The notes under the pieces are model-generated. The model worked only from the letters and a program-made list of their open reading frames with translations. It had not been told where the DNA came from and searched no databases. Below, in pieces: positions 23,482 to 23,698 of a stretch of DNA of 64,000 nt. Positions within the stretch are counted from its first letter, which is position 1; the number at the start of each line of letters is the position of its first letter. The position numbers and the translations under genes were made by a program. The stretch comes from Demequina rhizosphaerae. Lineage in GTDB: Bacteria; Actinomycetota; Actinomycetes; Actinomycetales; Demequinaceae. The stretch lies in contig NZ_BBMC01000007.1 of NCBI RefSeq assembly GCF_000971255.1, positions 62,001 to 126,000 of the forward strand, in the 5' to 3' direction.

Positions 23482-23655
23482 ATGGCGGATCGATCGCGCC
23501 TCGATCCGACGAGCGTGCTGGAAACGGCACGTGCGCAGGACCGCTCAGCGGATGGTCCGACGTGCGGGCTGGCGGGAGAGCTTGCGAGCCGGGGGAGGGC
23601 GCGCATCGTACATCGGCTATGGTGGACGCATGCGTGCACGCTCGCTGCTCCTTAG
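23482..23655 (+). pseudogene. Remnant of a second TetR-family regulator
   Basis: A 57-codon frame directly downstream of operator site B, in the position tetR has at the other locus. Its translation has RSRLDPTSVLETA, then LAGELASRGRARIVHRL, which lines up with the helix-turn-helix opening of TetR proteins (compare [10 protein letters not shown] and [16 protein letters not shown] in the 28076 gene). The rest of the regulator is missing; the frame runs into the leuA leader region and stops there. The match is by eye and modest, so a chance or recoded frame cannot be excluded. Confidence 0.4.
23618..23623 (+). promoter_or_regulatory. -10 element of the leuA leader promoter
   Basis: TATGGT lies six bases before the ATG of the leader peptide at 23630, so the leader transcript would begin at or next to that ATG. 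No convincing -35 is seen. Confidence 0.4.
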
Positions 23656-23674
23656 CTGCCGCGACGAGGCCTAG
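23630..23674 (+). CDS. leuL: leuA leader peptide with three leucine codons
   Basis: A 14-codon frame reading MRARSLLLSCRDEA. It contains three consecutive Leu codons (CTG CTC CTT), the last a rare codon in DNA this rich in GC. The frame runs into the left arm of a strong hairpin (23658-23698), and leuA follows 72 bases after its stop. This is the structure of a ribosome-mediated attenuator, known upstream of leuA in other actinobacteria: stalling at Leu codons when leucine is scarce would prevent the hairpin. The short coding frame has no other recognisable role. Confidence 0.75.
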   Translation: MRARSLLLSCRDEA

Positions 23675-23698
23675 AACAGGCCGGATCCTCGTCGCGGC
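23658..23698 (+). promoter_or_regulatory. Leucine attenuator hairpin upstream of leuA
   Basis: GCCGCGACGAGG (23658-23669) and CCTCGTCGCGGC (23687-23698) are perfectly complementary over 12 bases with a 17-base loop. A shorter competing pairing GGCCT/AGGCC (23668-23672 with 23678-23682) can form within it. The left arm overlaps the last codons of the leader peptide. No clear T-run follows, so termination could be by a hairpin-only mechanism or the element could sequester RNA differently. Confidence 0.7.

Follow-up and report, generated by a model that had tools for sequence, protein, structure and literature searches.

In Actinobacteria, an RNA element named LEU was described upstream of leuA by Seliverstov et al. 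in 2005, and the accessible text of that paper (PMC1262725) leaves open whether leucine is sensed by this element through the ribosome or through a protein. Leader peptides of leuA have also been reported for Corynebacterium diphtheriae and Corynebacterium glutamicum, as far as the available excerpts go, and LeuL1 of Streptomyces lividans TK24, with the sequence MRFGLLLLSCRGEGL, is stated in the accessible part of PMC8079986 to be transcribed leaderless and without a typical terminator. The uORF preceding leuA in Mycobacterium abscessus appears, in the portion of the report that is accessible, as protected in ribosome profiling. The features of the LEU element that could be compared clearly are present upstream of leuA in the window, i.e., the whole stretch of 64,000 nucleotides analyzed here, and, together with the leaderless leader reported in S. 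lividans, they indicate that the element of the window belongs to this known kind. Our favored reading, which we consider rather likely, is that a ribosome stalling on the Leu codons of the leader frees the Shine-Dalgarno sequence of leuA, so that the gene would be controlled at the level of translation. Sequence, pairing, conservation, and covariation were computed, and we infer where transcription starts, that the ribosome stalls, and at which level leuA is controlled. The features are collected in Table 1.

Table 1. Features of the leuA upstream region in the window, followed by loci of LEU-type elements before other genes
Feature	Position in the window, or loci	Strand	Basis or remark
-10 promoter box TATGGT	23618-23623	+	sequence; -10-to-start spacing conserved in relatives
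Leader peptide ORF MRARSLLLSCRDEA plus stop, predicted leaderless	23630-23674	+	sequence, relatives
Putative regulatory Leu codons CTG CTC CTT	23645-23653	+	sequence, codon counts
Base stem, 5' arm TCCTTAGCTG	23649-23658	+	overlaps Leu codons
Central hairpin, 5' arm GCCGCGACGAGG	23658-23669	+	12 pairs; the first, G23658, shared with base stem
Inner competing stem-loop GGCCT/AGGCC	23668-23682 (arms 23668-23672 and 23678-23682)	+	sequence, minimum-energy fold
Pseudoknot stem, loop side GCCGG	23680-23684	+	pairing, covariation
Central hairpin, 3' arm	23687-23698	+	exact reverse complement of 23658-23669
Pseudoknot stem, downstream side CCGGC	23709-23713	+	pairing, covariation
Base stem, 3' arm CAGCTAAGGA	23730-23739	+	contains leuA Shine-Dalgarno AAGGA, 23735-23739
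leuA, 2-isopropylmalate synthase, 581 aa	23747-25492	+	NCBIfam, Pfam
LEU-type leaderless leaders with Leu run, directly before leuC	L229-L232, L281-L283, L286, L288-L290, L294, L299		
Stand-alone LeuA-domain loci, Val/Leu leader codons	L331-L336, L338-L356, L359		
Val/Ile/Leu elements before small ORF, upstream of leuB in most	L233, L234, L293, L295-L298, L301-L303, L305, L309, L320		

The leuA gene is directly downstream of the element, its ATG lying 48 bases past the end of the central hairpin, and its product contains the LeuA allosteric domain according to the domain search. A gap of 639 bases separates it from the previous gene, which we take, from its sequence, to be an era-type GTPase. 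The leader ORF consists of 14 codons and a stop codon (ATG CGT GCA CGC TCG CTG CTC CTT AGC TGC CGC GAC GAG GCC TAG), and its ATG is preceded by the TATGGT box with a spacer of six bases, which is within the 6-8 nt expected of leaderless spacing. When both strands of the window were searched for ORFs of 8-25 codons that contain three consecutive Leu codons and have TANNNT 6-7 nt before ATG or GTG, this leader alone was found. A recognizable -35 box was not found, and a scan with the sigma-70 consensus gave no full promoter for the leader. The A of the leader ATG, or a neighboring base, is the predicted transcription start.

Conservation of this arrangement was examined in a sample of 198 genomes from the same order, 191 of which have a LeuA match. 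From these, 110 regions upstream of leuA were taken (30 loci and 80 fetched), and a Leu leader is present in 108 of them; the pattern gave no leader in L092 and L106, and visual inspection of L106 shows an ORF that has two Leu codons. An in-frame ATG or GTG preceded by TANNNT at a distance of 6-8 nt occurs in 106 of the 108 leaders (78 at 6, 27 at 7, and 1 at 8). Out-of-frame starts gave none, and 200 runs with shuffled upstream sequences gave 0.6 on average and 3 at most. The same spacing was observed in 76 of 79 usable upstream regions of named leuA genes, a set whose species overlap with those of the 108. The preliminary description had proposed that translation starts at the very 5' end of the mRNA, and the constancy of the spacing, as well as the leaderless transcript reported from S. 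lividans, supports that proposal. What it had singled out as a special point of this locus is the normal state of the LEU element: judged from the spacing, a leaderless leader is the rule. A peptide identical to that of S. lividans precedes leuA in two genomes of the phylum sample (L227 and L228). The nearest named relatives belong to Demequina, the closest being Demequina sp. SYSU T00192 with a LeuA identity of 97%, in which everything between the -10 box and the Shine-Dalgarno sequence, both included, is identical to the window, whereas the sequence further upstream differs. Three close relatives (L002, L003, and L004) have two Leu codons only in the run, in the form of LLT or LLM, and keep a base stem of 7-10 bp in a shifted register.

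A covariance model of the hairpin was built from these loci by dropping seven by hand and then removing those with an odd arm distance and duplicate fragments, which left 97, of which 69 were aligned. With this model, the element was detected in 173 of the 198 genomes of the order and in 56 of 396 genomes of the phylum, the latter at E values up to 0.001 with stricter filters. Both arms of the hairpin are strongly conserved beyond what pairing requires, with 17 invariant columns in alignment A1, some of them forced by the Leu pattern. In the genome of the window, the next hits of the model reach at most 24.7 bits, and three of them that were checked by eye lack the layout of a LEU leader. Neither was a LEU element seen by eye upstream of leuC in this genome, though one related family has it there.

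The RNA of the region is predicted to fold around the central hairpin, which has 12 perfect pairs and a loop of 17, and overlaps the leader ORF. First-order Markov copies of the window (five runs) contained 0-1 perfect inverted repeats of at least 12 with loops of 3-25 per run, as compared with nine seed positions, in about six places, in the window. The 14-codon peptide with its Leu codons, the position of the -10 box, the hairpin, and the inner pairing that competes with it, all of which had been noted in the preliminary description, were confirmed in the sequence. It had missed two further helices that extend beyond its coordinates, i.e., a base stem and a pseudoknot. The base stem is formed by 10 bp between TCCTTAGCTG and its reverse complement CAGCTAAGGA, so that the Leu codons overlap one arm and the other holds the AAGGA box, seven bases 5' of the leuA ATG. 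The predicted RNA from 23630 to 23760 has a folding energy of -59.3 kcal/mol (z = -2.85), and 199 of 200 shuffles were less stable. It forms the base stem and the central hairpin in its minimum-energy fold, which also contains the inner pairing, a candidate for the alternative hairpin of the LEU element; pseudoknots cannot be shown by the method. No Rfam family reached the gathering score near the element.

A separate palindrome upstream, at 23401-23476, gave two microRNA matches in Rfam at E values up to 10, which we regard as chance. Within it, a perfect inverted repeat around CGTACTAAGTACG / CGTACTTAGTACG (window 23414-23463) has an operator-like appearance and is located just upstream of a 55-codon ORF on the minus strand (23393 down to 23226) that has, by eye, a hydrophobic stretch.

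Both additional helices were evaluated by a swap test, in which the longest-helix score of a genome's own arms is compared with that of arms swapped between genomes over 10000 permutations (n = 108). For the base stem, own arms scored 16.32 and swapped arms 14.79 (0 of 10000 permutations), and for the pseudoknot 17.11 and 15.18 (0 of 10000), differences that the relatedness of the genomes inflates. Within the genus (n = 13), the base stem gave 17 of 10000, and the pseudoknot, taken for the genus alone, gave a weak 467 of 10000. Shuffled arms score below swapped arms. The leuA start is doubtful in about ten of the loci, which were kept and add noise: the script found no start codon in L002, L003, L020, L058, L078, L080, and L094, and an implausibly early GTG in L044, L074, and L077. 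In the 69-row alignment, 54 cells of the hairpin and the pseudoknot have both sides changed, as compared with 12.3 in shuffles, a count to which kinship may contribute. Among members of the genus, the base stem shifts its register on the codons and is replaced as a whole helix: L002 and L003 have the arms CTCGCTGCTT/AAGCAGCGAG where the window has TCCTTAGCTG/CAGCTAAGGA, and two other relatives have TTCTTCGTCG/CGACGAAGGA. The base stem is weak in some elements, such as L005 from the same genus with 4 bp, and of the 80 stronger stems only 49 combine an overlap with the Leu codons with an end 3-14 nt upstream of the leuA start.

The choice of Leu codons in the leaders is biased. CTT accounts for 147 of the 352 Leu codons in leaders but for only 22 of the 1291 in 30 leuA genes, and it is the last Leu codon in 90 of the 108 leaders. 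Because CTC CTT is complementary to AAGGAG, this choice fits pairing with the Shine-Dalgarno sequence. The rarity of CTT may also aid the sensing of leucine, and the two effects are not separable here. The Leu codons of the leaders vary at third positions, and the invariance of the last two is partly forced by the search pattern.

These features can be assembled into the following scheme. Transcription would begin at the leader ATG or right beside it, and the leaderless start would be loaded by a ribosome. When charged leucyl-tRNA is ample, the ribosome is expected to reach the stop codon and depart; the stretch of Leu codons might then pair with the Shine-Dalgarno sequence of leuA in the base stem, stacked on the hairpin and the pseudoknot, and leuA would be translated poorly. 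When leucyl-tRNA is short, the ribosome would stall on CTG CTC CTT and cover the 5' arm of the base stem, thereby blocking the stem and leaving the Shine-Dalgarno sequence free. On the simplest reading, the Leu codons themselves would act as the anti-Shine-Dalgarno sequence. In a fold model of the window, the openness of the Shine-Dalgarno region was 0.17 in the free RNA and rose to 0.58 when a ribosome occupied the last Leu codon, as compared with 0.45 for a ribosome at the stop codon. Across 106 genomes, openness rose from 0.336 to 0.411 on stalling (Wilcoxon p = 0.002) in the model, which ignores the pseudoknot; 46 genomes went up and 25 went down, which is the wrong way. The difference between the stalled ribosome and that at the stop codon was not significant over the same genomes (p = 0.21). 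The fold model therefore lends support to the case of the window and to the general direction, not more. The small gain of openness across genomes and the base stems that are weak or lack the expected position count against the scheme, as do two published observations. Mutation of the leuA leader in Streptomyces coelicolor had some effect, which was inconsistent with classical attenuation, according to the accessible text of PMC1262725, and starvation of C. glutamicum is accompanied by a parallel increase in leuA and its leader RNA, which the scheme does not predict.

The preliminary description had viewed the region as a leucine attenuator of leuA, and of that view the leader peptide with Leu codons has stood, while termination of transcription is not supported. 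Attenuation would mean that the progress of the ribosome through the leader decides whether transcription ends, at a hairpin or through Rho, before leuA is reached. A Leu leader and a strong hairpin are present as it demands, leuA was grouped with attenuated genes in a 2019 paper on C. glutamicum, and Rho-dependent termination coupled to poor translation is compatible with the data. No terminator-like site was detected between 23100 and 23900, however, and neither a U-tract nor an intrinsic terminator follows the hairpin; the S. lividans leader, too, is said to lack a typical terminator. Because of the missing intrinsic terminator, control is likely exerted at the initiation of leuA translation, and the conserved pairing of the Leu codons with the Shine-Dalgarno sequence of leuA points to the same level. 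We thus consider attenuation of transcription unlikely.

LEU-type elements also exist before genes other than leuA in related genomes. Of 27 loci considered for second hits of the covariance model, those with the stronger second hits were fetched and, from the weak ones (E above 1e-5), just L298 and L300; L300, L237, L245, L246, and L248 have no LEU-type leader and were discarded as chance hits. Paralogous leuA genes in several families also carry an element of the LEU type. In one family of the order sample, whose nearest neighbors by leuA upstream sequence are Microbacterium and Agromyces (five of its genomes compared), leuC is preceded in 13 of 13 genomes by a LEU-type leader that contains consecutive Leu codons, in each case with TANNNT 6-7 nt ahead of the start codon. 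A further model, R3, made from four more elements, retrieved loci of which 30 were fetched; in 26 of them, the four seeds included, there is an ORF related to a stand-alone LeuA allosteric (dimerization) domain. Pfam LeuA_dimer exceeds the cut-off for two of the seed proteins and stays below it for the other two. Leaders of these loci contain mainly Val codons together with Leu, e.g., MPRRLVVATRSGV. Their hairpin has 11-13 bp in 25 of 25 measured loci, and the loop pairing has 7-9 bp in 24 of 25, the exception being L331 with 4 bp. In the 21 of these 25 loci that have a usable start, base stems formed by a genome's own arms scored better than those with swapped arms (19 of 5000 permutations). 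Elements near leuB, e.g., MTQRVVILIRRGEFR, have Val, Ile, and Leu codons and weak base stems of 4-6 bp, and in several genomes they directly precede a small unannotated ORF, some 20-30 codons long, that has the motif ALQE(S/A)(L/M)D.R(D/E); those searched gave no Pfam or NCBIfam hit at the cut-off.

The composition of the codon slot changes with the downstream gene: 52% Leu and 4% Val before leuA (90 distinct peptides); 53% Leu and 7% Val before leuC (12 distinct peptides); 22% Leu, 22% Val, and 18% Ile near leuB (20 distinct peptides); and 14% Leu and 36% Val before the LeuA domain alone (17 distinct peptides). The count includes 12 of the 13 leuC loci, with L299, which is the same locus as L217, left out, and four leaders have no assigned gene. 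Because homology to the leuA element was used to find these copies, a shared structure is expected of them, but the change of codons is not. The LEU element might belong to a family of codon-programmed RNA switches with a single pseudoknot fold and a leaderless leader, responding to leucine before leuA and leuC, to valine and leucine before the stand-alone LeuA allosteric-domain protein, and to valine, isoleucine, and leucine before the small ORF near leuB, with the amino acid sensed being set by the codons of the 5' arm. We regard this generalization as an even call. If it is true, the element would be a small amino-acid sensor whose own codons serve as the anti-Shine-Dalgarno sequence.

That codons are swapped within one fold also favors codon sensing by the ribosome over the 2005 idea that the element binds a regulatory protein, such as an ML1624-like helicase, and that the leader is a by-product. 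The idea, proposed in the accessible text of PMC1262725, can draw on the conservation of both hairpin arms beyond pairing, partly forced as it is by the Leu pattern. It is difficult to reconcile with the start codon locked 6-8 nt behind the -10 box, the varying third positions of the Leu codons, and the ribosome protection of the M. abscessus uORF, and we consider it improbable. The natural copies that share the fold and carry other branched-chain codons make the choice between ribosome and protein testable by codon swaps. Least probable of all, and only slightly behind protein binding, is that the pairing and the leader are remnants, with leuA being set by promoter strength and leucine acting on the allosteric domain of LeuA only: that domain is present and three members of the genus retain only two Leu codons, but the near-universal leader in the order, the detection of the element in most of its genomes, and the compensatory changes in the stems speak against decay.

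Compared with the LEU element as it appears in the accessible text of PMC1262725, the window likewise has a leader ORF containing consecutive Leu codons, a base stem between these codons and the Shine-Dalgarno sequence, a hairpin, and a pseudoknot; nothing essential differs, its base stem being long at 10 bp. The leaderless start, leuC, leuB, and the stand-alone LeuA domain are not discussed in that accessible text. LeuL1 of S. lividans TK24 differs in that its 5' end was measured, according to the available part of the report, whereas that of the window is predicted. The ilvB-II motif of Corynebacterium (PMC10272879, as far as its text is accessible) is similar in that a uORF rich in branched-chain codons controls a gene for branched-chain amino acids, but an intrinsic terminator was proposed there and none is seen in the window. 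In the accessible parts of the open-access literature, no leader of the LEU type was found ahead of leuC, of leuB, or of an isolated LeuA domain, which is weak evidence that the spread of the element to leuC, the lone LeuA domain, and the neighborhood of leuB is unpublished. As for leuA itself, the element, the Leu leader, and the leaderless start are all already in print in the sources accessible, and the copy in the window is an ordinary one. By this comparison, leuA of a Demequina-like actinobacterium joins a known regulon, and its mechanism shifts from termination to, most likely, masking of the Shine-Dalgarno sequence.
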